Below, one piece after another: positions 18,128-42,103 of a stretch of 64,000 bases of DNA. The notes beneath the pieces are model-generated. The model did not search any database and was not told the DNA's origin. It worked only from the letters and a program-made list of their open reading frames with translations. The translations under genes and the position numbers were made by a program. Source of the stretch: Lentinus brumalis. Lineage: Eukaryota > Basidiomycota > Agaricomycetes > Polyporales > Polyporaceae. The stretch lies in the NCBI GenBank assembly GCA_001792895.1, contig MARA01000020.1, positions 186,001-250,000 on the forward strand. Direction: 5' to 3'. How positions within the stretch are numbered: the stretch's first letter is position 1; each line of letters begins with the position of its first letter.

Positions 18128-19836
18128 ATGTCTCTCTCCGCTGAAGCAGAAGCTGCCGAGCTATTCGCCGCTTTCGACAGTCTGTGAGTCTCATCCTGTC
18201 ATCCCGCCTGGACTGCGTATTGACGTCGATTACGCGGTGCAATGCAGTCGAACGTCCGATTGGGTCGCGTTTGCATCCACAGGTGAGTTTCGTCCCTTGG
18301 CGGCCCCCCCGTCGAAAGCTTGGGCGTCGTATGTTAACGTCCTCGGTTCTTGCAGCCTTCCTCATATACGACTACACGCTCACGCTCGATCGAGAGGTAA
18401 AACTCTTCTGGACGAAAAGGTTCACGAGCGTCACCATACTCTACCTCGTCATCCGCTACTCCTCGTTGACATACGTGGTCCTTGATACACTGGAGCCGGC
18501 ACCTATCCTTACTGCCGAGGTGAGCCCTCTTGCCAGCTCCCGTAGACCTCTCGTATCGATGCTGAGGCCACACAGAGGTGCGTGCATAGTTTCTCTGCGC
18601 GCTGTAGCACATTCTGTAACGTAACATTGGTGCCAGCTGCCTCGCGCTCTTCAAGGTGGTCGATGGCATAGAAGCCGGACGCTGGATCCCCTTAGCAGGT
18701 GAGCAGGCCAGAAACATCGGCGTGTACGGCTGAACAACGTCGTGTAGCGTTCTCCGCCATGAGAGCATATTCCTTGGCGAAGTCGCGCACCATATCTGCT
18801 CTAATCTTCATCTCGTCCCTCGCGCCGCTAGCGGCAAACTTGGTACGTCCGTGTCAACATGCTCGACAGTGAGCAGCTCGTTTTGACCACAGGAACCGGG
18901 GTGTACGTAGGTTCAGTACGGAAAGGGCATGGACTCAGTGATCATCCCTATCAATCATCTCTGCGTAGAGACCGACACGTTCACCCCGGAAGATGTTGTG
19001 ATGTGCGTTTCAACCAGAGTAATCTGCCTTGACCTTGACTAACCCGTGGCTCAGACGTACGTCAGGCAGTCTGCAGACACCCATGGCCATGATTGACTCA
19101 CGCCTAGCCAGTCACACTCGTGTCTCGTCTAGGGCTGATCATCGCCGATGTGGTCCTCGTTGTGCTCACCTGGCGCACGCTTGGACGTGGTCCCCTTCGC
19201 CCTCGTCTACCACATGCGAGCCGTGGCTCACTCGCGAGCGTGATGCTTTGGAACGGTGCGTGGCGCAGTGTCCAGCACTCTCCGTTTAGCACGTTTACTT
19301 ACAAGCTCAAGCTACACAGGCCTGCTCTACTTCATGCAAGTCGCGCTGTCGTCTTGCGCTAAGTATCCGCGACATGCTCACCTAATCTCCTCACGTAGTG
19401 CCCTGCTGGTACTCAACGTGCTCCACCTTTCCCTGTCGCTAGCCGCTGTTCGTACTCTTCCTACGCGCAGAATCATGATCATGCACCGCTGACTGTCAGC
19501 CGCAGGTGTTTGGGACCACAAACGGTCCCAGCAACGTCACGCTGTTGATGGATCCGTACGCGACTTGCTCTCCGTCCGAGGTCGCACGCTGACACGGCGC
19601 GCGGATGTCGCAGGATCATGACCATCCTCGTCGCGCGCCTCATGCTCGACTTGCAGGAGGCGAACCAGCGAGACGTGAAGCTCGACTCGGGCGACGCCCT
19701 CCACCTTTCCCAATCGGAAGGATCGTCAAGCTTCGTGCGGGGAATGGGTTCTATTCGTTCGCTTGTTTTTGTCGATGACGGGCAGGAGGACTCCAGAGAT
19801 GGCGAGGTGCAAGATAGTGGAAGTTCGCACGCATGA
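18128..19836 (+). CDS. DUF6533-family multi-span membrane protein 1
   Basis: The family signature sits near the N-terminus: FLIYDYTLTLDREVKLFW followed by LYLVIRYSSL. Further spans are AAFSAMRAYSLAKSRTISAL, VSRLGLIIADVVLVVLTW and LLVLNVLHLSLSLA, and the family-typical tail is ILVARLMLDLQEANQRDVKL. DUF6533 proteins have about seven hydrophobic helices, are expanded in Agaricomycetes and have no known function. Exons begin at 18128-18183 and 18248 onward. To keep frame, the gene needs a 2-nt exon AG at 18576-18577 and another, AC, at 19055-19056, each between a canonical acceptor and donor. A later intron uses a GC donor (gcaagt near 19336). Paralogues lie at 21497-23270 and 40484-42103, on the other strand. 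Confidence 0.8.
18576..18577 (+). other. 2-nt microexon AG in DUF6533 gene 1
   Basis: Upstream coding ends in phase 0 at ...LTAE|gtgagc. Downstream coding must begin with C-TGC (…C-LALFK). Two nucleotides are required, and the sequence acag-AG-gtgcgt supplies them, giving Ser-Cys. Both flanking introns are of normal size (about 55 nt each) with branch-like gctgag and tgtaac. Confidence 0.7.
19055..19056 (+). other. 2-nt microexon AC in DUF6533 gene 1
   Basis: Coding ends GTG-AT|gtgcgt and resumes TC-ACA-CTC-GTG after ctagccag. The frame needs two bases, supplied by ctcag-AC-gtacgt, giving Ile-Leu. Branch sites gactaac and tgactcac precede the two acceptors. Confidence 0.68.
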
Positions 19837-20181
19837 AACTTGTTCATGGACGGTCTTGCTGGACAAGTACGCTCGCTCTTTACCGCCACAATGTACAATT
19901 CCTGATACCAGATCGCCTCCGACGTCAATGCCGGGAGAGCAGAAGTCGAACGTTCATAACACCCGAAATGTACTCACCGTCGGATGTCGCGCGACGCTAT
20001 CAAGGCGAGAGTGGGATACCGGCCGCGGGCTCTGCTTGAACTCAAGCTCTAGTTCCGCTATTCTCCGGTGGTGTTGCTCGTCCCATCGGTGAACAGTGCT
20101 CCTCGCAGTCAACTTGTGAGTATCATCAATCCCCTGATACAACATAGAAGACGAATGCCGAGTTCACCATCACTGTCAGCG
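19837..20181. other. Short convergent intergenic spacer
   Basis: About 345 bases separate the stop of DUF6533 gene 1 from the stop of the ICMT-like gene. It presumably holds both 3' UTRs. No further gene is seen. Confidence 0.4.
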
Positions 20182-20998
20182 TCAGTACAAGAACGGGAGT
20201 ATGCGGTAAGGCGTCTTCTGAGACCACTCTTCCCAGCTCTTCCCAAACTCCCTCTTCATCAGCTCATCTTCTGTTCTCGTCCTGTAGAGAGACCCGACAG
20301 CCACCCATGTCAGGTGCGCCACGACTGTCGTGGCGATAACCTTCCCGACCCATGTGCTTCGCAGTCCCGACTCCGTGAAGAACGAGCCGCGGCTCAAGAG
20401 CAACATGAAGTTCCCCGCGATCATGAGCAGCCCTCCTATGTAGGCCGGGTGTCGGACGATACCGTACGGCCCCGAGGTGACGAGCTTGTGGCCGTCCTGT
20501 ATTCCGACCTCCAAGGTGAAGAAACGCCCCAGCGTCCGGTGGCACCACCGCCTGAGCAACCCTCCGCTGATCGCGAGGAGACAGGCGGCAACGGAGGCGG
20601 GAGTGAGTCTGAGCGGTACACTGTCTAGCGGGACGTTCGCGGATGAGAGGATGGCGCCGACGACTCGATGGAGGAGGTTCGCCGGTGCGGACCAGAGCGC
20701 AAGGAGTATCACAGCTTCTGCTACAGCGAGCACGCACATGACCGTCTGCGGGGACGGCAAAGTATTCGATGAGCTATGCACGGTAGTAGCCCTTACTTCT
20801 GCGTACCCTGTCCATGGCGAATATGGCCATCTGCACGCGAGGATGCCAGCGCATGAAGTCCGGAGCGCGAATCAGTTTCTGCCGTGGTGGAGGCGATACC
20901 ACAGGAGGAGTGAAGCCCATATATGTGCTTATCGCATGTGCGAGGAGCAATCCGATTTTGAGTAGAGGAGTGTTGGCGAGAGTCATGGAGAGGAGCAA
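20182..20998 (-). CDS. Isoprenylcysteine carboxyl methyltransferase (ICMT)-like membrane protein
   Basis: Two exons, 20807-20998 and 20182-20745, joined FAMDR|TVMCVLAVAEAVILL across a 61-nt intron. The first exon carries a hydrophobic N-terminal helix (LLKIGLLLAHAISTYMG) and a proline-rich linker. The second has three hydrophobic spans, the ICMT/PEMT-type core LVTSGPYGIVRHPAYIGGLL and the closing block EDELMKREFGKSWEEW. ICMT enzymes methylate the C-terminal isoprenylcysteine of Ras, Rho and mating pheromones at the ER membrane using S-adenosylmethionine. The RHPxY and E-x3-REFG elements fit that cofactor site. Basidiomycetes have many ICMT-like paralogues, so whether this is the canonical STE14 orthologue or an accessory copy is not decided. 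It converges on DUF6533 gene 1. Confidence 0.82.
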
Positions 20999-21496
20999 CA
21001 GGGTGGGTGACTGCAGAGCCCATATGGCGTGTCGAAGTACTGCGAACCATTTATACGAGTACTTAGTCGTGAGCGCAGACGCATATCAATACTCGGAAGC
21101 GATCGGTACCTGCCTCGAAGAGCGTGGCACGCTGGGAAGGCGGATTAGTGCATGGTACGTATGACATGTATGACACCGCTTCCGGCGTGGGTGGTGTCGA
21201 TAGTGCGTGCCCGCTATGTCGATTTCGACAGAGTGATTGCCTCTCGGGACTTTGCAATGAGACTGACGCATTGATAAGCCCAGACTGCGAACAGCCGATG
21301 TGCACTCTTCAGCAGGCACAATTCCAACTCCGTAGATCACGAGGCGTGCAGTCGTCCAGTGGGAGCATGTATAGATTGGTGTGCCATTGGGACCGATTCT
21401 GACATCTACAGGGTATACAAGCCCAGCCCCAAACCTAAGCAATGTCAACCTCAACGAGATATGCAGTCACTGCAAAACGTACGGGCAGCAGCACTC
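20999..21496. other. Intergenic spacer, 498 bases
   Basis: This lies between the start of the ICMT-like gene and the stop of DUF6533 gene 2. It should contain the promoter of the former and the 3' UTR of the latter. Open frames here lack family features. Confidence 0.35.
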
Positions 21497-23270
21497 TCAG
21501 CAGTGCGACTGCGGAGTATCCTCGTTCGAAATAACGCTTCCATTGCTTCTCTCAAGCTCCTGCGACGACTCCGGCTCGCCAATACTCTCGCCACCCGCGA
21601 CGAATTCTTCCTCCTCCCGAGCTACGCCCGTGCCGATGACCTCGCCAATGGAGCCCATAGCGCGCGCGAAGCTCAGCGTGCCGGCCGACCCCCCGGAGAA
21701 GTGCAGCGGGTCGTCGGAGTCGAGCTTCACGTCGCGCCGGTTGGCCTCCTGTAGGTCGAGAAGGAACCGCGTGATGAGGATAGTAGTCAGCCTAAATAGA
21801 AGGTAGAATTTTGAGCATTTCGAGGAGCGCGAGAGTGAAGACGGCAACTGCGTACGGTTCGGTGAACTCCGTGATGAAGCTGAGGCTGACTCCGAAAATC
21901 TGCAGTAAGGGTCAGTGCATCGTCCGACGTGATGGATAGTAGACGTTCGAACGCACGGAGGTGAGCGTGAAGGTCAGGTGGAGAACGTTGAGCATGAAGA
22001 GCACGCTCGGGTTGGGGTGAGCTGCGCCTGACTAGTGCATCGTACTAGGCATCATGCTCACACAAAGTATAGCAGCCCTAGAAAGAGGTGAGCTCGTCGC
22101 AACTGCCGTACTTGCTACCGATAAAGCCTGGACGTACCATTCCACAACATGATCGCCGCGAGTGACCCCTGGGACATCTTGGTCATGCTGGGGCGAATCG
22201 ATGTCGCCCCCAGCGTGCGCCACGTCGCGACGACGAGTATGAAGTCCGCTATGATCAGCCCTCCACGTGAGACTATCGGGACTGGAGTGGCAATCCACGT
22301 TCCAATTAGCAGAAGGAGGAGAAGGAACGCCGACATTCTCACGCACATCTATACGGAGACACACGCTGAAGATGAGTGATGGTGTGGGACGACGACGACG
22401 GAGAGAGACGAACATGAGATCCTCTTGCGGAGTGCTGTTGCGACTGCTCACGCATCCGACGATAGGTTCCGCGATACCAGTCATTCCGATCGCAAACTGC
22501 GCCTAATCAGGACACTATGAGCGAACACATCCTGCGGGAACTCGATGCGGATGGACGTACAAGATTGACCACTAGGGGAGCGATGGACAGCGTGAAGATC
22601 ACCGTGGCAGTCGCCCGACTCTTCGTCAATGCGAATCCTCGCATTGCGGCGAACGCTGAGGGTTCCATCACCATCAACTAGGTGAGCACTGAGCTAGCAC
22701 CGAGGCTTCGCTATGAGACTCACCGGCCCATGGCAGAAACCGAATATCCTGCATGATGCTGGCTGCCTTCGACAGACCATTGCAACTGCGAAAAGCAAAC
22801 ACAGGCCGAGTGAGCTATACGGGGACGAGGGCCTCTCAATATTCATTGACGATGTACCTCTGCACGAGTCAATCAGCACAAGTCGAGTCATACCACCAGG
22901 AAACGTGCTTACTACGTCGGTCAAGGTAAAAGACAGCTCGGCCATAGCGAAGAGCTCGAGTAGTATTGCGATGTACCTGTTGGAAAGGAACAGCAGCGAT
23001 GCGCCTGTAAACTTGCGCGTCCAGAACAGCTCGGCCTCGAGATCGAACGTGACAACATAGTCGTATATCAGCAGAGCTTTGTGATTGAAAGGAAATCAGT
23101 GCACGTATATAGGCACTCAGGGTGAGTACGTACTGATTGGTACGGTTGAGACGTAGCTGCCTGTTCGACTTCACGGGAAGTCAGCATCACACCTACTCCA
23201 ACATGAGTAGGGAAGCATACAGAGTACCAATTAAATCCACAATCTGCGCATCGTCGGACGGAGATGACAT
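21497..23270 (-). CDS. DUF6533-family multi-span membrane protein 2
   Basis: Starts MSSPSDDAQIVDLIGTLY at 23270, nearly the same opening as paralogue 3. The DUF6533 core reads LLIYDYVVTFDLEAELFW, then SLLFLSNRYIAILLELF. Later blocks are AFAAMRGFALTKSRATATV, VSRGGLIIADFILVVATW, VLFMLNVLHLTFTLTS and ILITRFLLDLQEANRRDVKL, ending in an acidic tail. About seven membrane spans are expected; function is unknown. Coding needs two 2-nt exons, AG at 22858-22859 and AT at 22347-22348 (minus strand), exactly as in the other two paralogues. The gene lies just downstream of the F-box gene that was split by the retrotransposon, on the same strand. Confidence 0.78.
22347..22348 (-). other. 2-nt microexon AT in DUF6533 gene 2
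   Basis: On the coding strand, GAT-CTC-AT|gttcgt precedes and TC-CCG-ATA-GTC-TCA follows ccactccag. Context tatag-AT-gtgcgt supplies two bases and yields Ile-Phe-Pro, matching the Ile-Phe-Pro of paralogue 3. Confidence 0.68.
22858..22859 (-). other. 2-nt microexon AG in DUF6533 gene 2
   Basis: Coding-strand context tgcag-AG-gtacat lies between TLTDV|gtaagc and T-TGC-AAT-GGT. The two bases restore frame and give Ser-Cys-Asn, as in paralogue 3 (Ser-Cys-Asn) and paralogue 1 (Ser-Cys-Leu). Confidence 0.7.
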
Positions 23271-24145
23271 CTTGCAACTTGAAGAGTGCACGGTGTGCTT
23301 GGTCCTGCCAGTGCCACCTATATACCACGCGAGATGATTTTGTCGGAAGCTGCTAGTCGGACGCAATTGTACGGCCTCGACGGCTGGATCCACTCTGGCA
23401 CCGTCACTTGTGAACGTCCCTGTTTCACTGCCCAATGTGGAAAGGTTCTTGTTCATCTGAACAAAGACACGGGAGTAGCGAGTCGCGAGTAGCGCAAATC
23501 GAAGTGTTGCTAACCGTCGAAGCGTCCGTGACAAGGTGCCCCTTGAGAGCGCCTGCCGAAGTATATAGCGTCGACCAGTTCATACAGGGGCTCTCAAAGA
23601 AGCTGCGTGGTTAACGAGGGTTACTCTCCCGCGAACAGTGTAAGGAATGGCATCACCAATGGAAATAGAAATCATGATGTCGGAGAGCTCTTACGACACA
23701 AACAAAATGGAACATAGCATGCGATACGAGAAGGACGTCTCCTACGCCGCAGAAAGAGATGATCAGTGAGAATTCAGTTCTTGACTGGGACTGCGTACCT
23801 CATTGTCATACGACCGCCTAGAAACGAAGTCCCAGCGCACGGTCTCCAGGCAGATGTAGACGAGCCAATTCTGCAAAGCAGTGACAATGGGGACAAGACA
23901 GTATGGGAGATCGTCGTGGTTAAAGTGTAACGTATCAGCCGTCGTGCAGCCGTCTTGCCGTGATCACGGCCACGTGGGATAGCGCTTATTCGAGTTCGCC
24001 AACCAAGTTGAACAAGCTGAACGTGAACCTCGAACCCGGCCGCCCGACCGAACCAGCACATAACATGGTTTGGTAGACTACAGAGAGCGCAGGTAAGAGT
24101 ACCAACGAGGCACAGCAAGAAATACTCAAAAAGACGCAGCACAGC
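23271..24145. other. Intergenic region between DUF6533 gene 2 and the F-box stop codon
   Basis: About 875 bases with only short open frames. The side near 23271-23400 is the presumed promoter of DUF6533 gene 2. No repeat boundaries were seen apart from the target-site duplication that begins at 24155. Confidence 0.4.
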
Positions 24146-24169
24146 TCAGTAATCAAGATATTCGATCCG
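24146..24169 (-). pseudogene. Displaced last codons of the F-box gene (RIEYLDY-stop)
   Basis: Read on the minus strand, this stretch gives Arg-Ile-Glu-Tyr-Leu-Asp-Tyr followed by TGA (24146-24148). The F-box gene body at 37458-39660 ends in LKRIEYL where the retrotransposon starts, and its intact paralogue ends in LKRIEYLDY-stop (54868). This is therefore the original 3' end of that gene, moved 13.3 kb away by the insertion. Confidence 0.9.
24155..24169. repeat. Target-site duplication, left copy (15 bp)
   Basis: aagatattcgatccg here is identical to 37458-37472. The two copies bracket the retrotransposon, and the flanking host sequence is one continuous F-box coding end when the element is removed. 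Confidence 0.9.
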
Positions 24170-25338
24170 AAGGCTCCTCTTCCACAAACCGCCACCACGG
24201 CGCGTTCTCTCACGGTCCCTGGCTCCTAGGAGCGGCCATACCGTGTATCTCTGTACAACAGGCAGTGTCTAGATACCGCCGGAATGAGTATTGACTATGC
24301 AAGGGTCACGATGATGTCGGTACAATCCCCTGCGATCAAGGAAGAGTGCGCTGCACTAGCCTTCTGGCTGCAGGCGTTACGCCTGCCTCTTCAGCTACTA
24401 GACCGGAAGACCCATCGAGGACATCCGCCCGACGCTGATGCGCTGAACCAGCCTCTACCTGACCTCTTCGGTCTGTACGCCCTCCTGTCGAGACGACGGA
24501 AGGCATGCCGCCTCGGACTTGCGGACGGTTCGTTTCTGAACCTGACAAAGCTACATGACTACAAGACGCGCTCTCCGCGCCTCTCTCTCCCGTAGCGCTG
24601 GCATCGCGGCGCTCGGGCTCTCGGCCTCCTCGGCCCAACTCTATAGCAAGACGTTGGCTGGCCGGTCGAAAAGGACTCCACTCTGCTGAGACAATGCTAG
24701 GCTCCCCGTTCCCTGAGGCTCCTGCTTCGAGGGTCAGGTCCGTTTACAATTGTCCCATACGCGACGAGACGCACGGCCAGTCCGCGACGTACCACCGCGG
24801 CGCCCATGCCTGCCGATTAGCACTCGACCGACTGACCTCCTGCTGAACGAGATCTCGGCGGAAGCCCGAACCGGACGTAATGTCGTACGTCTGGAGACTG
24901 CGTGTCGGGGTGCGATGCCCCCGTCTCTATGCGGGGGTCCTACTTGCAACCCAGCAACTAAGTACTGCGTCGCTCTCACCCTCTCGGCTGTTTGTGTCGC
25001 CACTCCCCGAGAAACGTCGATGCCGCGCCCGTCCTCGTACGAGTGTGTGCGGGGCTGCTAGCCTCACGGCGTATGCAGGCTCTACTCCCTTCGCGGCAGT
25101 CAACAGTACGAGAACGGTCCCTCCGCGTCCATCGGCCGTCTGAGGAACACGATGTGGCTGCAGCTCTCAGCCTGCCGGTCGTTTAGCCTCCCTCGGGACC
25201 CTCGTCTCCGACCACCGTCCCCAACAACGCACGGCAGCTGGCCTCGGCTCTTGCTGGCTACTGATACTGGACATCCTCGGCGCGAGGCGATCTATGCAGG
25301 AAGTCCCATGCGGTCCCTAGGTTCGAACTCCGTCCTGT
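24170..25338 (+). other. 5' leader of the retrotransposon
   Basis: The first 1.2 kb of the element has no recognised domain. One 103-codon frame (24284-24595) starts with ATG but has no recognisable features. A 5' UTR with an internal promoter is expected for a LINE. No tandem monomers of the kind seen in some LINE promoters were noticed. Confidence 0.4.
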
Positions 25339-26184
25339 ATGCATGTCCATAGCCTATACTGGCCCTTCCTCCAATTGAGATGCTCACACGTGTGCGCGGT
25401 GGCGAGTGTCATAGAAGGGGACCGACGGGTCTATTTCGCTTCCGCCCACCCCCCAAAATTTCTATGTGTCATAGCCAGCTCACCATGGATGAGCCTTAAG
25501 ATAACCTGTGTCTCCAGTCTACGCCAACAAAGCTCTGCAGCAGGCCTGCCACAGACACCGCAATCCGCACACCCCCTCTCCATCATGACGAAACGTCTAG
25601 TCAACTTCTACTCCGCGGTCGTCAGGAAGACTGCGATTGGAGTCGAGAACAACCCTGACACGTATGTGCTCATCAAGAAGCCCGCGATCCTGTTGAGGGT
25701 TGGAGTCAGGCTGAGGCTCTACACGCGGGACAAGCAGATCTACTCGCACCTTGGATGGGCCGTCATCGAGAGAGTACGGACCGTGGAGCGGGAGGAAGTA
25801 GAGTTCATCATCTGCCGTGTCGGAGAGGATTCGGAGGACGAGATCAGAGGCGTCCGACATTTCCTCGTCGCCGAAAGGAATCTAACGGCGGCGGGTTGGT
25901 CGACGAGGCACCTCATCCCAAGGATAATAGCCACCTGGAGGAATCTGTATGAGGGCGTCGAGCGTGTCGAGAGAACGGTGCCACCTACCCCTCCTGCATC
26001 CCTGCCGGCAACCCCGCCTCCCTCAGAGGTGTCGCTATCGACGATCAGCTTCGACCATGATCGCGACAACACCCTCGCAGGCCAGATCCCCAGCCTGGAA
26101 TCGTCCGTGGGGGCGACGGTAGACTGCCGCTCACTTGCGGCGAGGTCGAGGACGTCCATCGCATCCCAGACGATCAACGAGTAG
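25339..26184 (+). CDS. Retrotransposon accessory ORF A, unknown function
   Basis: A 281-codon frame from ATG 25339. An internal ATG at 25585 (MTKRLVNFYSAVV) gives a 199-residue form that looks more protein-like: after a poorly structured first part comes a block of alternating hydrophobic and charged residues (ILLRVGVRLRLY, GWAVIERVRTVE, VEFIICRVGED), suggesting a small beta-rich domain of about 110 residues. A Pro/Thr/Ser-rich tail with two PPTPP/TPPP-like motifs follows. No catalytic motif or zinc ligand pattern is seen. The gene lies 5' of ORF1 inside the same TSD-bounded element and in the same orientation. It may be distantly related to accessory ORF B. Whether it is translated is unknown. 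Confidence 0.5.
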   Translation: MHVHSLYWPFLQLRCSHVCAVASVIEGDRRVYFASAHPPKFLCVIASSPWMSLKITCVSSLRQQSSAAGLPQTPQSAHPLSIMTKRLVNFYSAVVRKTAIGVENNPDTYVLIKKPAILLRVGVRLRLYTRDKQIYSHLGWAVIERVRTVEREEVEFIICRVGEDSEDEIRGVRHFLVAERNLTAAGWSTRHLIPRIIATWRNLYEGVERVERTVPPTPPASLPATPPPSEVSLSTISFDHDRDNTLAGQIPSLESSVGATVDCRSLAARSRTSIASQTINE

Positions 26185-26555
26185 CTGTGGCGGTCGCAAG
26201 GATTGGAGAGGACGCTCTTGAGTTTGTGCTAGCAGCATCGAAGTTCCGCCCCTATCGTTCTCATCGCGCACGAGTACTTATGTCGCCATCGTCCAAAGTA
26301 TGACAAAGATTCCTACGTAGCGTGATCGATTGTCGGAGTCTTCTATCATACGGCCCCGGCCCCGGCCCCTGTGATCAGCCGACCTCTAACATACGCCGCG
26401 TGGAATCATCGGCTGATACTTGCCACCCACTGTCTGGGACAAGGCACATAACCGGAACTACGTCGCGTGCCGGTGTAAGTAGCAGAAGCAAGGCGCTGCC
26501 GGGATCTCCCTATTCGTGCGCGTCCCTGCGCTCCAAGGTCTAGCTATGCGATGAG

Positions 26556-26562
26556 TATAAAG
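26556..26562 (+). promoter_or_regulatory. TATA-like box before accessory ORF B
   Basis: TATAAAG lies about 170 bases before the ATG at 26728, followed by a pyrimidine-rich leader. Such an internal element could drive a separate transcript of ORF B, but position is the only evidence. Confidence 0.3.
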
Positions 26563-26727
26563 GCAGACCGGTAAACGTTGCAGACTGACCTCTCTCCGCC
26601 CACGTCGCGCACCACGCTGCCCCTGCTCAACAGCGCCGGCTGCTGAAACACGTCCCTCGCCGGCACTCTCCTGCGCAGGCAACGATCCTCCCCTCTAGAC
26701 CTCCCGCTCCAGCACGCGTCCTCACCG

Positions 26728-27369
26728 ATGTCCGAGCCGGTGACTGTGTACGCCAGATGGGCTGGCTATTTTGACGGGCATCCCAAGAGCGCGGTCCCCT
26801 CGGGCGATCGCGCGCACGTCTACTCCGCCTCTATTCTCCCCGAGCAACCCCTGAAGATTGGAATGAGAGTCAGACTACTGGCCACGACACCCGCGTGGTA
26901 CTACACACCTGAGGAAGACGCGGACGTCTACGACGCCTACGACGCGCACATCGTGGGGCCGATCATAGGAGTTGTCGGGTGGAAGGGAAGGAAGGTTGTT
27001 CTCGAAATCCAGAACGAGTGCGGCCTCAATCCTGTAAAGAAGGCGAGGATCAGGATCCCTTTCGCGCCGGAAGCAACGGTGCAGCTGGAGGAGGACGTGC
27101 TGCCGATCGGGAGACGCGAGGCCTTCGAAGAGGACCTAAACACTACGGCGGTGGTTAGAATCCCGACGGAAATTGCCCGCTGCGGGGCGGACACGTGCTC
27201 CATGCCATGGAGACGTCTCGTGGGCGAGGATTTCCTCTCAGAGCCAATGACGGAGGACGTTGGCGAGCCGCCCTGGGCCCTCGGAGGCAGAAGGAAGAGG
27301 CAGCTACGCCTCATCGGCTGGAGCGATGCCGCCGGTCCCGGTGTGATAGCTAGATCTCGCGCATGTTAG
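26728..27369 (+). CDS. Retrotransposon accessory ORF B, unknown function
   Basis: A 213-codon frame starting MSEPVTVYARWAGYFDG. Residues 30-130 alternate hydrophobic and polar positions in a beta-rich pattern: LKIGMRVRLLAT, IVGPIIGVVGWKGRKVVLEI, KKARIRIPF. This resembles accessory ORF A in the same relative place (PxxLxxGxRxRL, then a GW/VG-containing strand, then a basic-to-hydrophobic strand). Two cysteines sit near residue 155 (CGADTC) in a CxxxxC arrangement, and the tail is basic (GGRRKRQLR). No known domain is recognised. The frame is open and its codon use resembles ORF1, so it is likely coding. Role unknown; RNA or nucleic-acid binding is only a guess from the basic tail. Confidence 0.5.
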   Translation: MSEPVTVYARWAGYFDGHPKSAVPSGDRAHVYSASILPEQPLKIGMRVRLLATTPAWYYTPEEDADVYDAYDAHIVGPIIGVVGWKGRKVVLEIQNECGLNPVKKARIRIPFAPEATVQLEEDVLPIGRREAFEEDLNTTAVVRIPTEIARCGADTCSMPWRRLVGEDFLSEPMTEDVGEPPWALGGRRKRQLRLIGWSDAAGPGVIARSRAC

Positions 27370-34800: not shown

Positions 34801-36805
34801 TCACGTCGCCCAAGAAGGTGAGCCTGTACGCATCCTAGGCGCGTTCTTCGGAAACGGTGTCAACCAAGTCGACGTATGGTCACTGGTACTCACCAAGATC
34901 GTTGCCATGAGGCAACCACTCATGCAAGTCCTGGCACGCTGGTCGTCTGGCAGTGCGACGCTTCAAGGAAAGAAGCATATCGTCCAAATGATTGTAGGCG
35001 GCATTACGCAATTCTTGACAAACGTCCAGCGCATGCCGGCGACGATAGAGAAACGCCTCGAGAAAGTGATACGCAGTGTCCTATGGAGCGAACGCTGTAG
35101 CTCCCCTGTTGCTCTAGAATATACCTACCTACCCGTGGAGCTCGGCGGACTAGGCATTCTAGACCTTAATGCTAGAAGTGAGGCTATCGACATTATGTGG
35201 CTTAGGGCGTACCTCGACTTTGGCCCAAACCGTCCCCTTTGGGCCTACCTGGCCGACGACCTTCTCGCCACCCACGTCACGAAAGACGTCCGACCCCGCC
35301 AACCTCAGCTAAGACTCAATCCCTTCCTCCAACACTGGAAACCAAGAGCGAGAGGCCTACCCAGCGCACTCACAGGCATGATGAGTGTCGCTCGCAAGTA
35401 TGGAGTGCGCCTGGAGGGCCTAGCCTTCTCGAACAAAATCCTACGCGCAATGCCCATGTGGGATCACACGTACGCAAATCGGGTCGCGCTAGGCCGACTG
35501 TCTGTGCCGTCAAGACTACTTACCTGTCTGCAAACTCGGCACGCCGCCACGACGGTCGGTGATTTCCTGGACCTTGCTAACACGCTGGACAACCCCACGC
35601 ACGTACCCTCTGCCAGGTGTGGCTGTCCTGAATGCTCTCGTATCAGGACGGACGTCGATTGTGAGAACCCTCACCTGTGCAGTACTAGGGCAAGGGACAT
35701 GTTAAAAACCCTACCCGATAAATGGAATCCCAAAGTACGACAGCCAGAGGACTTCGAGAATGAATCCTGGAATAAGCTGACCCAAGAGGAACTCAGTAAT
35801 GAACTTGTTCCCTTCGACAGACGAGTGACGACGTACGGGGACCTCGGACACGCCTTCCGCATCTTCACGAGCCCGGTGCCGGTGTCCAACGACGGTATAC
35901 CTATGGAAGTCATCGAGGACGGTTCGGCCCTGACCGTCGCAACGGACGGATCGTGCCTGAACAATGGAGAGAAGAACGCCCAAGCGGGCGCGGGCATTTT
36001 CATCAGCGAGGGCCACGCTGGAAACCGGAGCTTTCGGCTTCCTGAAGACCTGGAGCAATCGAATCAGACGGCAGAAATCACGGCCACATTCCTGGCGTCC
36101 GCGTTGGTCAAGACCAGTACCAGACTCACCCAGGAGACCGACTCTCAGACGACCATGAATGCACTCACTAAGTGGCGGCAAAGGCACGAAGACACAGGCT
36201 ATATTCTCCAGAAAAACGCGAGCCTGACTCGGGTTACTGTCGCGAGATTGCGGATGAGACGCGCACATACCGTCTTCAAATGGGTTAAAGGTCACGCCGG
36301 GCATGCTGGGAATGAAGCCGCTGACCGACTGGCCGCTGAAGGCGCCGCAAAGCTAACGGCTGAGAAACTATGCCTCCGCATACCCTCCCCATTCTCTGTA
36401 ACCGGCGCAAAACTACAGGCGATTACCCAGAAACTGGCGTACAAGGCCATCCGGGCCCGCAAGGACGTTCGAACAAGTCCTCGAGCGAGAACGACGGCGA
36501 ACATTGATCGTATTTCAAGCGGCCTTCAGGCGACCTTCGGCATCCAAATCCGTGAGGCCGCGATATGGCTCTCGCTGCGCTCGAAGCACATCTCTCGGCC
36601 GATCTCCCAGTTCATGTGGATGGCGATCCACGACGCCTATATGGTCGGCACGCACTGGTTACGCCCCACGATGTCCGACGATCTGCGGGCTCGTGCAACG
36701 TGTGCTGCCTGTGGAGAATGCGAGACAATGACTCACATTGTCCTTGAATGCAGCGCCCCAGGACAAGAGCTGGTCTGGGGACTCTTGAAGCAATTGTGGG
36801 GCTGA
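31880..36805 (+). CDS. Retrotransposon ORF2 polyprotein (endonuclease, reverse transcriptase, RNase H)
   Basis: 1641 codons. The APE-type endonuclease starts near residue 157 (IATLNINGFGS), with LLLQETHL and MAGDFNNVEDCLDRL. The reverse transcriptase includes VNYRPITVLNTDYKLLSKAL, AGFVPGRK, ALDQEKAYDRIDH, HRGVRQGDPLSCLLFDLAIE and the catalytic FADDTTVYL near residue 906. RNase H follows, with DGSC near residue 1356, the second acidic residue in QTAEITA, a third in TDSQTT, and KGHAGHAGNEAADRLAAEGA near 1470. A CX2C...HX4C finger (CAACGECETMTHIVLEC) lies near 1608. All catalytic residues seen are intact. The frame ends at TGA 36803-36805, but conserved-looking coding continues in the -1 frame, so the natural protein is probably about 130 residues longer. 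Confidence 0.9.
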   Translation: MVVPVPTTATATYTNNTETPMVVTLGNGSILSGGGRGERSVHATPFSVDTLAGNGRMPRPPLGAGPRGCGRASSLSSSDNRPSADPTSAPPSPEQSAASTAAQLRFQPTPLPPQTGHATRGIGQSPPPQPVISVRPRPNRSGTRRDEENARKTAIHIATLNINGFGSLIRDHDDNKWGRVYRMMTDNRIGVLLLQETHLTEERKASLHKMFARRVKIFFSANPDAPTQREGVAIVLNTRHVSTADAVATEIVPGRALQISLLCQGGERRYLLCVYAPTSSGAEERREFFKGVQKYYEDRPDFPRPHLMAGDFNNVEDCLDRLPVNDQSDASVLALDSLKLSLGLMLTDGWRTTYPTVRDYTFHRGTGRDAVFSRLDRIYVSPRVFEGAREWKICEAGVKTDHSLVSVQLTSASAPEVGPGRPIFPLLLLKNKTLAKRIKARGVEALRDLDTIASTGRRTEANNPQTVLHQFKGALMQLARERERQVVPKLLAEIRNCESALKRLKANGSVSDQAVLEESAALTKQIRRLKLTRYKQQMQNSRATHRLYGDRPTKYWSKLHRECAPRDIILAFEVEGQVGPAGGKVYVADSSRMADMARSHHMNIQLDDPSMKPAEERAADIDTALGNIDVKVSATQARSMGGEITYEDCMLSLRFAKNGTAPGLDGIQFEVWKVLHARYIEDARFPDRPNFDIIRLLTAAFEDMRLHGVCARTGLANGWMAPIYKEKGERSRVVNYRPITVLNTDYKLLSKALAVRLAEVAPEIIHRAQAGFVPGRKIHNHTQLARMMMSWAEANNADGAIVALDQEKAYDRIDHAYLWRVLEKFGLPAPFIRLVQSLYKHAETSVMINGFLSKPYRIHRGVRQGDPLSCLLFDLAIEPLSAMIRKSGIKGFDIPKCDEVLKAVLFADDTTVYLSAQDDFTTLQVVLDTWCSAAKARFNISKTEIIPIGSAAHRDEMATTYQATGSWKDYPQGVHVAQEGEPVRILGAFFGNGVNQVDVWSLVLTKIVAMRQPLMQVLARWSSGSATLQGKKHIVQMIVGGITQFLTNVQRMPATIEKRLEKVIRSVLWSERCSSPVALEYTYLPVELGGLGILDLNARSEAIDIMWLRAYLDFGPNRPLWAYLADDLLATHVTKDVRPRQPQLRLNPFLQHWKPRARGLPSALTGMMSVARKYGVRLEGLAFSNKILRAMPMWDHTYANRVALGRLSVPSRLLTCLQTRHAATTVGDFLDLANTLDNPTHVPSARCGCPECSRIRTDVDCENPHLCSTRARDMLKTLPDKWNPKVRQPEDFENESWNKLTQEELSNELVPFDRRVTTYGDLGHAFRIFTSPVPVSNDGIPMEVIEDGSALTVATDGSCLNNGEKNAQAGAGIFISEGHAGNRSFRLPEDLEQSNQTAEITATFLASALVKTSTRLTQETDSQTTMNALTKWRQRHEDTGYILQKNASLTRVTVARLRMRRAHTVFKWVKGHAGHAGNEAADRLAAEGAAKLTAEKLCLRIPSPFSVTGAKLQAITQKLAYKAIRARKDVRTSPRARTTANIDRISSGLQATFGIQIREAAIWLSLRSKHISRPISQFMWMAIHDAYMVGTHWLRPTMSDDLRARATCAACGECETMTHIVLECSAPGQELVWGLLKQLWG
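36798..36801 (+). other. Frame break in ORF2 at a GGGG run
   Basis: QLWG-stop in the ORF2 frame overlaps TLEAIVGLTGEPWTDPSWG in the -1 frame. One additional G in this run joins QLWG to LTGEPWTDPSWGTIFG. The alternative is a programmed -1 frameshift; no classical heptamer slippery site is present. Confidence 0.6.
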
Positions 36806-37206
36806 CTGGTGAACCCTGGACCGACCCCTCCTGGGGAACCATCTTCGGCGCGGCTTGCGTGACTTTCAAGACTGAAACAGGAGGCAGGAAGACCGGGCTG
36901 GAACGCCTATGGTGTATCCTATGCTCGGAAGCCTTACATCTCATCTGGAGATTAAGATGCGAGAGAGTTATTCAGAACGAGGGACTGAACTTCTCGGAAC
37001 AAGAAATTACGAACCGTTTCTATGCGACTATGGAAACGCGCCTTACCCTTGACAGGCGCACTGCGGCTCTATCGAGAGGGAAAAGGGCTCTGAAACCAAG
37101 AGACGTTGAGCAAATATGGCTCCCGATTCTCCAAGACAAGGATAACCTACCGCCCAAGTGGGTTGTAGATGGCGGGGTTTTAGTGGGTATAAGACGAGGT
37201 AGATGA
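36802..37206 (+). CDS. C-terminal extension of retrotransposon ORF2 (-1 frame)
   Basis: The open frame covering 36748-37206 reads SWGTIFGAACVTFKTE, then GLERLWCILCSEALHLIWRL and RCERVIQNEGLNFSEQEITN. This helical, Trp/Leu/Arg-rich block is the kind that follows the zinc finger in related fungal LINE polyproteins (recalled family pattern). It ends in a basic tail. It should be read as part of ORF2 once the GGGG break is resolved, not as a separate gene. Confidence 0.65.
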   Translation: MTGEPWTDPSWGTIFGAACVTFKTETGGRKTGLERLWCILCSEALHLIWRLRCERVIQNEGLNFSEQEITNRFYATMETRLTLDRRTAALSRGKRALKPRDVEQIWLPILQDKDNLPPKWVVDGGVLVGIRRGR

Positions 37207-37457
37207 TGGAGACGCTGGCCTGTGCGGTGTCTCCAAATGATTCTCTCCGTCTCGAGTCCCACACTCTGTGCGTAATAGCATTTCCCCGCGGTGATCATAT
37301 AGTAAGTAGCACGTACCTTGTCCCAGGTCTACGGTCCTTGGATTAGCTACACAGCGCACCTGGTCAGCACTCGCTGGCCACAAATTGCATGACAAGCCCC
37401 CTTGGGGACCATTGCAATTTAAGGTAAATTTGCGCCCCACCAAAAAAAAAAAAAAAA
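37207..37457 (+). other. 3' UTR and poly(A) tail of the retrotransposon
   Basis: About 230 untranslated bases end in an uninterrupted run of A at 37442-37459. The last one or two A residues are shared with the right target-site duplication. Confidence 0.85.
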
Positions 37458-37472
37458 AAGATATTCGATCCG
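37458..37472. repeat. Target-site duplication, right copy (15 bp)
   Basis: aagatattcgatccg, identical to 24155-24169. Directly after it the F-box coding sequence resumes on the minus strand. Confidence 0.9.
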
Positions 37473-38398
37473 CTTCAGACGCTTGACCGTCTCCATCTTC
37501 CAGAGTGCGCCCTTGAACCCGCGCGTCATGGCGTAGCCAGAAACGAGCTGCACCCTGCGTAGCTTCGGGCACCAGTGGTTCCACGGGATGAGGAGGTCGC
37601 GCATCTCCTCCTCAATCGAGCCCCACGTGTTGTCGAACAGGTGCGTCGGGTGCTCGGGCGTGTACCCTCCCTTCGGCGGAAGCTTGTACATCTCCAACGT
37701 GTGCAGCTCCGGCAGCTCGAGTTCCGCACCGAGATTGACGATGTAGTTCTACGCGCAGCAGGCAGTCAGCGAATGCACGGACGAAGAGAGGGAATGTCGA
37801 CGTACCTCGTCAGGACCGCCGCGGCCATAGACGAGCTTCAAACGGCGAAGCTGCTTGAAATGCCGGGAGATCGCAGCCACGACCTCAGCGTCCCAGGTCT
37901 TGACTTCGAACACGAGTACCTCGAGAGCCGGACGCGCGAGCGCAATAAGGGCGAGCGCCTCGATAGCTTTGGGCGTATCGAGCCCACACTTAAGCACTCC
38001 CAAAGCTTTGACATCGCGATGAGCAGCGACAAACTGCGCGGTGTCCAACGGCGCCGCGAAGGACACCAGCCCATGCGGGAGTTCATCAGGATCCATGGTG
38101 ACATCGGATGGAGCGAAGACAGGCGCAGAGATCGTCTGCAGGCGATGCGCCCGCGAGCAGAAGTTGTACAAACTCGGACTGTGGTAGTCCTCGACGTGAT
38201 CCCTGACCTTGGCCGTAATCGTGCGCACCTGGAGGACGTGGAGATGCTCCAGCATCGGAGGGGCAACCCATCCGCGATCTTCGGCCCCAGGCGCGTCGAA
38301 CACATGGCGGAAGACATCCGTAGACGAGTCGACCTTCAACGTTCTAAGGGTTGGCGCGGCGGCAAGCGAGAGGGCCTGAGCGAAAGAATCTGGGCGAC

Positions 38399-38404
38399 GG
38401 GGGG
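38399..38404 (-). other. Frame break in F-box gene A at a six-G run
   Basis: On the coding strand the frame before reads GNPPP and the paralogue-like frame after reads DSFAQALSLAAAPTLRTL. One extra C in this run joins them as PPPRRPDSFAQALSLA, matching DPFAKALSLAVAENLRTL of the paralogue. Confidence 0.65.
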
Positions 38405-38903
38405 CGGATTCCCCTGATTTAGTAGAACTTGTGCGATAGGAAGATTGGCTTGGGCGAGAGCTAGCTGCAGTTGGGGCAGCGGGATGGGCTGGACGGGCGC
38501 GAAAAAGGCAGGATTATGCCAGGCATGAGCATGGACAGTCGCTCCGCGTCCGCGGCGAACCCCGATCATCGTCAGCGAGGTGATCGGGAGGGCCTGATTG
38601 TTGAAGCCATCAGCGGCGCCGTGGTCCACATTGCAACCGATGAGGCTCAACGAGCGCAACTGGGCAAGATTGTGTATGAGGCGGAAGTGGCCGTTTCTGA
38701 TGGTCATGTCTTTGAGGACGAGGGATGAGAGGTTGGTGAACGTCTCGACGCGCGCCCACAGGACAGCCTGCACCTGTTCCGGCCTGAACAGGACTTGCTT
38801 ATTGGGAGCGAGCAAGGCCTGATGCGCGGCAGGGGTAAGTCCTTTGAGGGCGGAGGGCCAGACGTAGTTGCCGAGGATGAATGCGTTCTGCGCGGGGGTG
38901 TTG

Positions 38904-38911
38904 TTTGCAGG
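38904..38911. repeat. 8-bp target-site duplication of the MITE, left copy
   Basis: tttgcagg, identical to 39389-39396. Eight bases is the length produced by hAT transposases. Confidence 0.85.
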
Positions 38912-39388
38912 TAGTGATGTGCGAGCTCGGCTCGGCTCGAAAGCCGCGGCTAAAGCTCGGCTTCAAGAGCTACGGCCTGGTGAAACCCCAGGCCGAGCTC
39001 TCGAGGACGGCTCAAGCTGAGCTCGAGCTCGGCTCGGCCTGAGCCGGAGCCTCGAAGCGGTGGGCGCTGCCTCACATAGGACTTTCCAGCCGTCAATTCA
39101 GACGGCTCTGGGGTTTCTGTGGGAGGTAAACGTAAGGGACCAGTGTTAGAAGGCTATTTAGTGGTACTCACTCACTTTGTAGGTCGAAATTCATGCCAGG
39201 ATCGACTAATCACTGGTCTTCCCAGCACCACCACGGAGCCCGAGCTTGGGAGCTCGGCTCAAGCTTACAGTGGTTGTGGGCCGAGCCGTCAAGCTCCCCA
39301 AGCCGTCTCGAGAGCTCGGCCCAGCTCGGCCTAAAGACGGCCGGCTTTGGGAGCCTGACGGCTTCAGGCCGGGCTCGGAACATCACTA
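38912..39388. mobile_element. Non-autonomous hAT-type element (MITE), 477 bp
   Basis: The ends are inverted repeats: TAGTGATGTGCGAGC at the left and, on the opposite strand, TAGTGATGTTCCGAGC at the right. An 8-bp duplication (tttgcagg) flanks them. The ends, with the TAGTGATGT start, and the TSD length are typical of fungal hAT elements. The interior is rich in GAGCTCGG-type sub-repeats on both strands and has no transposase frame, so movement would depend on a transposase elsewhere. It sits in the first exon of F-box gene A, between codons for GGVPA and NNTPAQ; excision of element and one TSD restores the frame exactly. Confidence 0.88.
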
Positions 39389-39396
39389 TTTGCAGG
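39389..39396. repeat. 8-bp target-site duplication of the MITE, right copy
   Basis: tttgcagg, identical to 38904-38911. Confidence 0.85.
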
Positions 39397-39660
39397 TACA
39401 CCGCCGATACTGAGCACGAGAGAGCGTACGCGGCTCGCCATCCCTGCGTCCGTCTGCCACACGTCAAGGTCCTGTGCCGCCTGACGCTCCTTGTCCCAGA
39501 CGAGATCGCGGTGAAGAGCCCGCGTCGTAATGCTGCAGCACTTGCGCGAGGCGACGCTCAGGCTGTGCAAGTCGGTCGACTTGGGCACCTGCTTGAAGAT
39601 CTCCAGCCACACTTCCACCGGGACCTTCTCCACGGCCGACGCGCCAGGTTGCATCGCCAT

Positions 39661-40483
39661 TGTATTGTCTGTACGTAGTTAGCCTGCATGGTCATGGGGC
39701 TATGATTAGTGGATTCCCTAACTTGATAAGTAAAGCTCGTACGGGCGCACGCAACTCAAGCTCTCGCTGAAGAGGAGTACGTGGGATGAGTGAGAGTGAG
39801 AGCGAGAGGGGCCGTAGGCTTCAGAGCTTCAGACGCGGGGCCCCTGAAAACAAACTCATTGTGAGGGCGCTAGGGGCCAGGCTGATCCAAAATTTGAGTT
39901 CACATTTTTCGGGAATGCGGGACATTCTCCTGCATGTCGTCTGAAGGATCAGAGAGGTGTGCTCGACATACTAACGCTGCAAAGATACTGCTGCGCAGAT
40001 GGACTCACTTCTTCAGTGTCGAAGGTCTGACCGGTGCTTTTGTGCGTATTATCTCAAGCCTGTTGTGGGTCGGGCATTGCAGGCTGCCACAGCCAAGGCG
40101 GTATGGCAAATCCGAGAGCTCACCGCGAGACAGTGCATAGGAACGGCGACACTCAATCAGTGGTTGACAGTGGTTGAAATGTTGAGGAGGAAGATGACGA
40201 GGAGGCCTGAGAAGGCAGCGTGTTCGGGGCTTGCATGAAGCGCGCGGCAAGCGCGCGGGGGTTAAAGCTGACGGGCGCCTGTGATCCGCGGTTCAGCATA
40301 CAGAAAAACCGCCGAACATGTTGTGCGTATGTCTTCCTTGGTCTTCCCTCCATGTCCGGGAGCTAACATTGTCCATGAATGTGGCGGCGACAGGTGCATA
40401 CCGAAGCATAGTTGCCCGCTTGCTCGCATACTACTGCACTGATACAGTAGTCTAAGTATCAGGACGAGCGTCCATACTACTAT
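39661..40483. other. Intergenic region between F-box gene A and DUF6533 gene 3
   Basis: About 820 bases with no recognised gene. It should contain the promoter of F-box gene A and the 3' UTR of DUF6533 gene 3. Confidence 0.4.
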
Positions 40484-42103
40484 CTATTCCGCCAGATCGT
40501 GGTTCTGGGTAGCGCCTGGAACAATGGTGGAGTTGATCGAGCCAAGAGCTCGCGCAAAGGTGAGCGATGCCTGCGAATTAAGGCTCGTGTCTCCGACGTT
40601 ATCATCGTCCGTGCCGAGTTGGACGTCCTGCCGGTTGGCTTCTTGGAGGTCGAGTAGAAAGCGGGAGATCAAGATCGTCGTGAGTCTACAGAGTATAGTA
40701 CATCAGCTTGGGACGAGGGAGAGAGGGAGGAGCAAGAGCAGCGCACGGGTCGGTGAAGACGGCAATGAGGCTACGCTCGAGCCCAAAGATCTGGAATTAC
40801 CATCAGAAAGGTAAACATCGCTGATGTTGAATGTATTCACCGACGTGAGGGTGAAGGTCATGTGAAGCACGTTCAGCAGAAACAAGACCCTATAGCGCAA
40901 GGTCAGACAGCGCGCGATGCGCGGAGGAGGGGGCATACACGAAGTAGATGGTCCCTGCGGAACGAGAGTGAGAAGATTCAGGCAGCAAGCGGTGAGTAAC
41001 ATCAGCACGCACCGTTCCAAAACATGATAGCAGCGAGGGACGTGTGCGCCTTTTCGAACGAGAAACGCGGGCGGGCCGAACTCCTCGCCAAGGTCCGCCA
41101 TGTCACGACGATTAGCAGGAAGTCCGCGACGATCAGACCACCGCGAGATACGGCAGGAACTGCGGGAAATATAGTGAGTCTATGGTAGGACAACTAAGCA
41201 TGTGGCATACATCTGCGTGGTAATCAGCAGAATTTTCCCAGACTCGGAAATAGGCAACTGACATGATGGTCTCGATTGGAGTGACATTGATTTGTGCTTC
41301 GCAATTTCCGATGGGAAGCATTGACCCTCGGATCCCTTGTCCGTATTGAATCTACGCACGCCCGCATAAGATGAGAACGCTGAAATTCGGCGGGACACGG
41401 GTAGACTCACGAAGTTCACCACGAACGGTGTGAGAGAGAGGAGGAAGATCACCGCGGACAGTGTCCTGTTGGTAGACAACGCATACGCTCGCATAGCCGA
41501 GAACACTGAAGAATGTCAGCATTTTGTTTCGACTGTTCACCAACAAGGCCGACTCACGACCGATGGGAAGGAACCGGAGGAAGTTGACTACATTGAACGC
41601 TTGGGCGAGCAAGTTGCAGCTGCCGAGGGAGCGAAGGTGACATGAGCATGTGTCAAAGGAGTACCGTGAGACGATGTCACCTCTATTCACGCGAGGACGT
41701 TAGCTTCTGAAAGGAAAACGGACTGACGGTAGACTCACTGTATCAGAGAGTGTAGGAACATACTCCACAATGTCGAGCACCTCGTACAGGAGCGTGCTAT
41801 ATCGTATGACGAAGAACAGCACCGATGCTCCCGTGAGTGTGCCATTCCAGAAGAGGCCGACCTCGCGCCCCAACGTGAGGACATAGTCGTATAGCAGAAA
41901 AACTGGAGTGCCACTCCGCTGTTAGTCATTTTGTCGTCCGCAGAGACTACAGACATGCATACCAATTGGGACAAGTCCGATGTACGTCGCCGATAGCCTG
42001 CATTCGAGAGAAGTCAGCGTCAAATCGGATACTGAGTGTCCGAAGACGTCCCGTACGTGGAGCTATAGAAGTCGATGAGCTGGGCGGCGCTTGGAGAAGA
42101 CAT
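40484..42103 (-). CDS. DUF6533-family multi-span membrane protein 3
   Basis: Starts MSSPSAAQLIDFYSST at 42103. The signature domain is FLLYDYVLTLGREVGLFW, then VLFFVIRYSTLLYEVLD. Later come FSAMRAYALSTNRTLSAV, VNFIQYGQGIRGSMLPIGN, VSRGGLIVADFLLIVVTW, VLFLLNVLHMTFTLTS and ILISRFLLDLQEANRQDVQL, ending in AE-stop at 40484. About seven membrane spans; family function unknown. Frame maintenance requires 2-nt exons AG (41681-41682) and AT (41211-41212), homologous in position to those of the two other paralogues. It lies between two F-box genes on the same strand. Confidence 0.8.
41211..41212 (-). other. 2-nt microexon AT in DUF6533 gene 3
   Basis: Coding strand: GAG-ACC-ATC-AT|gtcagt, then acgcag-AT-gtatgc, then TT-CCT-GCC-GTA after cccgcag. 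The product is Ile-Phe-Pro-Ala. Both flanking introns are 45-55 nt and canonical. Confidence 0.7.
41681..41682 (-). other. 2-nt microexon AG in DUF6533 gene 3
   Basis: Coding strand: TCT-GAT-ACA|gtgagt, then gaatag-AG-gtgaca, then C-TGC-AAC-TTG after ctcggcag. The first intron has an ideal branch site (gctaac). The product is Ser-Cys-Asn. Confidence 0.72.

Follow-up and report, generated by a model that had tools for sequence, protein, structure and literature searches.

Exons of a single nucleotide are already known from plants and from Fusarium, and the comparisons below hold for the accessible portions of the reports cited. The single-nucleotide exon of Arabidopsis APC11 is constitutive and experimentally proven, and its authors favour intron definition with stepwise removal (PMC4674806). 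Like the exons predicted here, it is too small for exon definition and essential for the frame, and the stepwise model parallels the one proposed below; yet it is 1 nt long, belongs to a single gene and was proven by experiment, whereas the present exons are 2 nt long, family-wide and read from sequence. In Fusarium, a one-nucleotide exon of the P450 CYP621A is common to 24 genes, with SRA reads and an intronless relative supporting the orthologues (PMC12940212). That case is likewise fungal and was discovered by equivalent logic, but it concerns 1 nt in orthologues, while here the paralogues of one genome carry two predicted 2-nt exons per gene. The microexon clusters of APC11 and VPS55 resemble the present exons in their cross-species conservation and common misannotation, but they are from plants, and the named clusters below 3 nt are of 1 nt (PMC8831610). 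Stwintrons likewise involve adjacent short introns that are removed consecutively; in their case, however, the mRNA keeps nothing between the introns (PMC9024468). The P450 genes of Phanerochaete chrysosporium also represent a white-rot fungus with small introns and a large family rich in microexons, but the shortest exon given in the accessible text is 6 bp (PMC1184071).

The literature searched contained nothing on 2-nt exons, the titles listed on microexons in basidiomycetes and Agaricomycetes included no report on the DUF6533 family, and the DUF6533 literature searched gave, in its accessible portions, no treatment of exons. The novelty of the present case is its scale and the presence of two predicted 2-nt exons per gene.

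Two sites in the three genes of the window

The window, a stretch of 64,000 nt from Lentinus brumalis, holds three genes that match the DUF6533 domain (Pfam PF20151; 48.3 bits in gene 3 versus a gathering cut-off of 24.1, with genes 1 and 2 also above it). When the sequence was re-read, the three 2-nt exons that a sequence-only reading had placed at the second site (site 2) were all present at their coordinates (Table 1), and the Ile-Leu or Ile-Phe deduced for the junctions was borne out, with genes 1, 2 and 3 giving I-L-T-L-VS, I-F-P-I-VS and I-F-P-A-VS, respectively. Direct joining of the large exons shifts the frame and in gene 3 results in a premature stop; with both of its 2-nt exons, gene 3 has a complete open reading frame of 13 exons, encoding 316 residues plus the stop.

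Table 1. Predicted exons at the two sites and DUF6533 matches in the three genes (window positions; slashes mark exon boundaries)
Gene	Feature	Positions	Strand	Sequence context	C50 coordinates
1	DUF6533 domain match	18349..18468	+		C50:204349-204468
1	Site-1 2-nt exon AG	18576..18577	+	cacag/AG/gtgcgt; Ser before conserved Cys	
1	Exon before site-2 2-nt exon	18911..19002	+	ends GAT/gtgcgt, phase 2	
1	Site-2 2-nt exon AC	19055..19056	+	ctcag/AC/gtacgt	
1	Exon after site-2 2-nt exon	19112..19255	+	cag/TCACACTCGTG; TC + ACA CTC GTG TCT CGT = T-L-V-S-R	
2	DUF6533 domain match	22961..23077	-		C50:208961-209077
2	Site-1 2-nt exon AG	22858..22859	-		
2	Exon before site-2 2-nt exon	22414..22496	-	ends CAT/gttcgt	
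2	Site-2 2-nt exon AT	22347..22348	-	tatag/AT/gtgcgt	
2	Exon after site-2 2-nt exon	22138..22281	-	begins 22281, cag/TCCCGATAG; TC + CCG ATA GTC TCA CGT	
3	DUF6533 domain match	41787..41903	-		C50:227787-227903
3	Site-1 2-nt exon AG	41681..41682	-	aatag/AG/gtgaca	
3	Exon before site-2 2-nt exon	41263..41351	-	ends CAT/gtcagt	
3	Site-2 2-nt exon AT	41211..41212	-	gcag/AT/gtatgc	
3	Exon after site-2 2-nt exon	41013..41159	-	cag/TTCCTGCC; TT + CCT GCC GTA TCT CGC	

The second site across paralogues

Seventy-nine regions were considered, a non-random sample in which the 39 distinct genes among the located loci were joined by 40 manual selections, most of them taken from one junction-spanning search. 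Four of them (L080, L095, L097 and L099) had no placed downstream exon; for that reason they were excluded from the counts and examined separately, which left 75 paralogues of DUF6533 type, all from the 53.4-Mb genome to which the window belongs. In the 85 nt immediately upstream of the VSR-type exon, 73 of the 75 show the unit AG-NN-GT(R)NG with precisely two nucleotides between AG and GT (k=2), versus a mean of 1.9 and a maximum of 7 in shuffled sequences; other lengths (k from 0 to 15 nt) never exceed 4 of 75, and the zero-length unit, in which GT directly follows AG, occurs in 0 of 75. As the background of [ACT]AG-NN-GT[AG]NG over the whole window is 0.033 per 85 nt, this recurrence is not due to chance. 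The remaining two paralogues have weaker donors (GC/gtagc and GG/gcacg, the latter being a GC donor). Canonical GT-AG introns flank the 2-nt exon in the family, with median lengths of 54 and 56 nt on either side. Among the 31 non-GC loci, the introns adjoining the unit show an identity of 0.26, which is the random level, versus a nucleotide identity of 0.59 in the next exon; the 2-nt exon is conserved among homologues beyond its flanking intron sequence.

Further carriers were found outside the 75, namely L080 (AC, with the exon at the very end of the region) and L099 (AT, on the other strand); in seven more loci, for which the DUF6533 domain was the sole anchor, the 2-nt exon was recognised by eye. 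The sequence-only reading had proposed that such exons are an inherited trait of the family's gene structure, which all these loci strongly support; it had described them in three genes, and all three hold, but the trait extends far wider. As for the other regions, that of L097 had been extracted with misplaced limits, L095 retains the upstream exon but lacks both the unit and the exon that should follow, and L007 has the unit followed by an unconvincing peptide. An intron-free copy with both bases inside one exon was found neither in two junction-spanning searches (18 matches listed; 150 of 194 candidates scored) nor by a pattern scan over the paralogue loci, where two pattern matches were due to chance.

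Frame and junction length

The frame was readable in 72 loci, with L059 and L118 (misassigned or broken upstream exon) and L025 (no fitting donor) left out. In these 72, the two nucleotides are required for the frame and result in a nearly constant junction length: the upstream donor lies 13 codons plus 2 nt after the Cys in 67 loci and at +14 in five, and the second junction residue is Leu or Phe in 66. The absence of stops is partly built into this count, as it admitted only a phase-2 GT no more than two codons from the expected place and with an open upstream exon. When upstream donors were ranked by a small donor matrix, the top-scoring one had the required phase in 51 of 70 loci, whereas it was a phase-0 donor in 11 and a phase-1 donor in 8.

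Public polypore proteins

The predicted junctions agree with several public proteins. Among the 16 (of 159) that are nearest to a predicted junction peptide, ten pass through in register and six, which are close relatives, depart. For example, P0001, P0006, P0027 and P0135 are identical in sequence to predicted junction peptides, P0007 contains the Trp encoded by T+GG across the predicted junction, and P0016 has Lys-Ile, matching the prediction from an AA exon. Many other public proteins have a different length at the junction, based on a distance scan that took the motif pair nearest to 20 in each protein, did not find the motif in 51 of the 159, overlooks the true cases P0027, P0035 and P0135 and includes at least one false case (P0060); among its 20-residue rows, P0055, P0063 and P0070 are unlike a predicted junction. 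The expectation that automatic models would miss the exons and break the proteins is thus correct in part: it suits the six departing models and the many other lengths, but not the ten in register.

Alternative explanations

At each site, a single longer intron with a shifted donor or acceptor might restore the frame, with residues gained or lost and the AG-NN-GT unit acting as a decoy. The orthologue of gene 3 in P. arcularius (P0002; 93% to gene 3) is modelled in this way, with an acceptor 20 nt upstream and six added residues, an option that exists in gene 3 too, and other public models differ in length. Under enumeration rules of GT with G at +5, an HAG acceptor and an intron of at least 45 nt, a single-intron model of other length is possible in 40 of the 72 loci, including gene 2 (+23 residues) and gene 3 (+6 and +17); in gene 1, an intron with a poor donor outside the +5 G rule (GATGTT/gtgatg to cctag/CCA) would preserve the frame. 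However, the length change varies by locus (from −7 to +31), these rules yield no length-preserving alternative in any of the 72 loci and no alternative at all in 32, and the 73 exact k=2 units inside introns of random identity would be left unexplained. Single introns were therefore rejected as a general account, and we consider this explanation very unlikely.

A stwintron or a recursive ratchet, consisting of nested introns with no exon left behind, would similarly comprise a pair of neighbouring short introns that have to be excised in succession, and stwintrons do occur in fungi. Yet stwintrons, as described in the accessible text (PMC9024468), lose the whole intervening sequence, whereas here the frame needs 2 nt retained and complete removal shifts it (gene 3); with k=0 also missing from all 75 paralogues, neither a stwintron nor a zero-length-exon ratchet fits, and such an arrangement is extremely improbable. 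That the loci are pseudogenes or contain frameshift errors, with the motif present by chance, is almost certainly wrong: a few copies do look broken (L098, L118 and perhaps L095), but the identical 2-nt need recurs at the identical place in the 72 readable loci, gene 3 has its complete open reading frame, and the unit scan excludes chance.

Proposed splicing and implications

Judging from the genomic sequence, a genuine exon of 2 nt, set between a pair of short GT-AG introns, is thus very probable in each gene; that its inclusion is constitutive, we infer. Its first base would complete the codon begun in the upstream exon, while its second base would open a codon, mostly for Leu or Phe, to be finished by the downstream exon. 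The site very probably goes back to the ancestor of this fungus's DUF6533 genes, and the exon would be retained because its loss shifts the frame. Short fungal introns are presumably recognised as whole introns, so that exon size would be no barrier, and the two introns would be excised sequentially, since two spliceosomes cannot fit 2 nt apart. The first donor of the large GC-type subfamily is weak (gtttgg, gttcgg) and the second is stronger (gtaggt), which suggests that intron 2 may be spliced out before intron 1.

With about 80 loci, many two-base sequences and both weak and strong donors, the family constitutes a natural series in which the handling of a 2-nt exon by the spliceosome can be measured, as single-gene cases do not allow. 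The exons would also account for the unreliability of gene models around helices 3 and 5 in this large mushroom family of receptor-like proteins. A more speculative and rather unlikely reading is that both 2-nt exons form a common splicing checkpoint for the whole family of GPCR-like receptors. If so, inclusion would lead to the seven-helix protein and skipping of either exon to a frame shift at helix 3 or 5 that shuts the product off, so that all members of the family could be turned on or off together by a single splicing factor.

The first site across paralogues

At the first site (site 1), a strict donor gave the k=2 unit in 19 of 39 loci versus a shuffle mean of 2.8, some of them being off the expected spot. 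The k=0 unit was raised as well (16 of 39 loci), and these cases are read as AAG/GT donors of the preceding exon. A looser pattern, HAG-[ACG]G-GT, chosen after the sequences had been seen, is absent from L014, L022, L025, L026, L035 and L059 and present in the other 33 of the 39 loci; by this pattern, the 2-nt exon of site 1 (AG) looks likewise family-wide.

Two-base exons in the three genes

The sequence-only reading had proposed six two-base exons in three DUF6533-domain genes of the window (C50:186001-250000 of a genome of 53.4 Mb in 136 contigs), one at a first conserved site (site 1) and one before the VSR-type exon (site 2) in each gene. Inspection of the sequence and gene models placed all six at the positions it gave. 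The full gene 3 model comprises 13 exons, two of them of 2 nt each, and an ORF of 316 residues plus stop; among the matches listed, its closest public proteins belong to the polypores Lentinus brumalis (96%) and Polyporus arcularius (93%).

Coordinates (window positions) of the three DUF6533 genes and their small exons
Feature	Position	Strand	Basis or remark
Gene 1	~18128-19830	+	DUF6533 domain; modelled as far as tenth exon
Gene 2	~23270-21500	-	DUF6533 domain; structure read by eye
Gene 3	~42103-40484	-	DUF6533 domain; full model
Site-1 2-nt exon AG, gene 1	18576-18577	+	sequence and gene model
Site-1 2-nt exon AG, gene 2	22859-22858	-	sequence
Site-1 2-nt exon AG, gene 3	41682-41681	-	sequence and gene model
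Site-2 2-nt exon, gene 1	19055-19056	+	sequence and gene model
Site-2 2-nt exon, gene 2	22348-22347	-	sequence, by eye
Site-2 2-nt exon, gene 3	41212-41211	-	sequence and gene model
16-nt exon after VSR exon, gene 1	19320-19335	+	apparently closed by the GC donor
Apparent GC donor CAT/gcaagt, gene 1	19336-19341	+	
16-nt exon after VSR exon, gene 3	40954-40939	-	

The site-2 unit across paralogues

Because the unit AG-NN-GT (acceptor, two exon bases, donor) is easily found in 130 nt of intron, three genes are weak proof, and paralogues were therefore used. The family is very large in this genome, with at least 150 DUF6533 matches scored among 226 candidates (contigs C35 and C45 hold many). The sample consisted of 79 regions: 39 distinct genes from downstream-exon searches, and 40 short stretches selected manually, most of which came up when a peptide spanning the junction served as query; counts are based on the 75 in which the downstream exon could be placed. 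When the 85 nt upstream of this exon were scanned for [ACT]AG-N(k)-GT[AG]NG, the unit with k=2 was found in 73 of 75 loci (dinucleotide shuffles: mean 1.9, maximum 7), and any other k from 0 to 15 in 0 to 4 loci each. The background of the k=2 unit across the whole window is ordinary, at 0.033 per 85 nt. In the two non-matching loci the sequence reads as a 2-nt unit whose donor is weaker (L059, gtagc; L119, gcacg). The exon reads GC in 42 loci, AT in 12, AC in 8, GT in 4, TC, CT and GA in 2 each and TG in 1.

Of four regions outside the counts, L080 and L099 have the unit, L097 had been cut wrongly, and L095 lacks both the unit and the next exon. By eye, the unit is present in all seven further loci (L001 and L003-L008) among the eight best DUF6533 matches, L002 being the same gene as L057; the continuation after it is unconvincing in L007. 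Copies L098, L118, L059 and L095 look broken, truncated or misassigned. In L119 (C51:17540-17900, minus), a GC donor, gcacgt, follows the 2-nt exon GG, and L. brumalis protein P0074 still has the predicted junction residues.

Across the 31 non-GC loci, the sequence next to the unit (30 nt on its upstream side, 25 nt on its downstream side) has a mean identity of 26%, the random level, against 59% in the exon that follows. AG, GT, the +3 purine and the +5 G are set by the search pattern; beyond them, only +6 T is clearly conserved (1.0 bit). The GC group, whose site-2 exon reads GC, has introns 39-42% identical and is younger. Random-level flanks around a retained pattern argue that selection maintains the site-2 unit, recent copying alone being insufficient.

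Reading frame and single-intron alternatives

As the downstream exon opens with two bases, 2 nt (mod 3) are required between the large exons. To read the frame, phase-2 donors were sought at about a set spacing downstream of a conserved Cys. This made 72 of 75 loci readable; the spacing between Cys and donor is 13 codons plus 2 nt in 67 of them and one codon longer (14 codons plus 2 nt) in the other 5. The codon opened by the second exon base encodes Leu or Phe in 66 of the 72, and the introns on either side measure 46-75 nt (median 54) and 49-73 nt (median 56). A small donor matrix applied with all phases allowed ranked a phase-2 donor first in 51 of 70 loci, a phase-0 donor in 11 and a phase-1 donor in 8, so that donor strength alone would not be decisive at every locus.

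The alternatives considered were single GT-AG introns whose donor carries G at +5. At least one open alternative exists in 40 of 72 loci, changing the length by -7 to +31 residues; none preserves length in any of the 72, and 32 offer none of any length. Under this rule gene 1 has no option, gene 2 one (+23) and gene 3 two (+6, +17); in our own reading, one intron with a poor donor would also keep the frame in gene 1. If site 2 of gene 3 were skipped, the tail would be read out of frame and reach a stop. Against the 2-nt exon there stands P. arcularius P0002 (93% to gene 3), whose model has a single intron and places the acceptor 20 nt farther upstream (TIILTIFPAVPAVSR); gene 3 offers this possibility as well.

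Of 159 public proteins compared, 16 show an ungapped match of at least 75% to a predicted junction peptide; RNA may or may not underlie the public gene models. Ten are in register through the junction, with P0001 (L. brumalis, gene 3), P0006 (P. arcularius, gene 2), P0027 and P0135 identical to the predicted peptides, alongside P0003, P0005, P0007 (whose junction includes a Trp explained by T+GG), P0009, P0074 and P0123; six depart there (P0019, P0029, P0057, P0069, P0103 and P0120). Additionally, P0016 has Lys-Ile as predicted from the AA exon of L001. The distance from Cys to the SR-type Arg, measurable in 108 of 159 by a rule that favours 20 and yields some false rows, is 20 residues in 24 proteins and 21 in 9, the remaining values spreading over 8 to 61, each shared by at most 10 proteins.

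Site 1

With the strict donor, a 2-nt unit was found at site 1 in 19 of 39 long loci, at times off the expected spot, and k=0 was also raised (16 of 39), an excess that we read as ordinary AAG/GT donors. The looser HAG-[ACG]G-GT, a pattern picked only after the sequences had been seen, occurs in 33 of 39 loci (shuffle mean 3.3, maximum 10), in 31 of which N-TGY follows the acceptor; site 1 is thus probably a family-wide feature too, with weaker donors. Against the AG exon, L. brumalis P0001 carries eight additional residues at this place, which means a longer exon. A 26-nt exon in place of AG (window stretch 41706-41681, minus) would give such a length; in gene 3 of the window that stretch runs, by our reading, into a stop.

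Splicing and precedents

Introns this short would be recognized as whole units, so that exon length itself would be no limit. The two introns flanking a 2-nt exon would be removed sequentially, because two complexes could not sit at sites 2 nt apart. One-after-other removal is the model proposed for the 1-nt exon of Arabidopsis APC11, whose authors recall potato invertase, where the second intron is removed first (PMC4674806). On a small matrix built from genes 1 and 3, the first donors of the GC group score 0.78 (gtttgg) or 1.92 (gttcgg) versus 4.98 for gtaggt, and this weak first donor suggests that intron 2 would leave first. The combination of a weak intron-1 donor (gtttgg, gttcgg) with gtaggt at intron 2 recurs in GC-type paralogues such as L030, L036 and L038.

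Exons of 1 nt are known from Arabidopsis (PMC4674806) and from Fusarium P450 genes (CYP621A; PMC12940212), and for Arabidopsis, Drosophila and humans the literature cites exons of 2-5 bp. The literature searched described neither 2-nt exons in DUF6533 genes nor the fixation of such tiny exons throughout a large paralogue family.

For the homologue P0006 and genes 1-3 of the window, the best alignments of the predicted helical fold are to G-protein-coupled receptors (Ste2, class A), with one Cys, in the hairpin, invariant and another, where helix 3 begins, nearly so.
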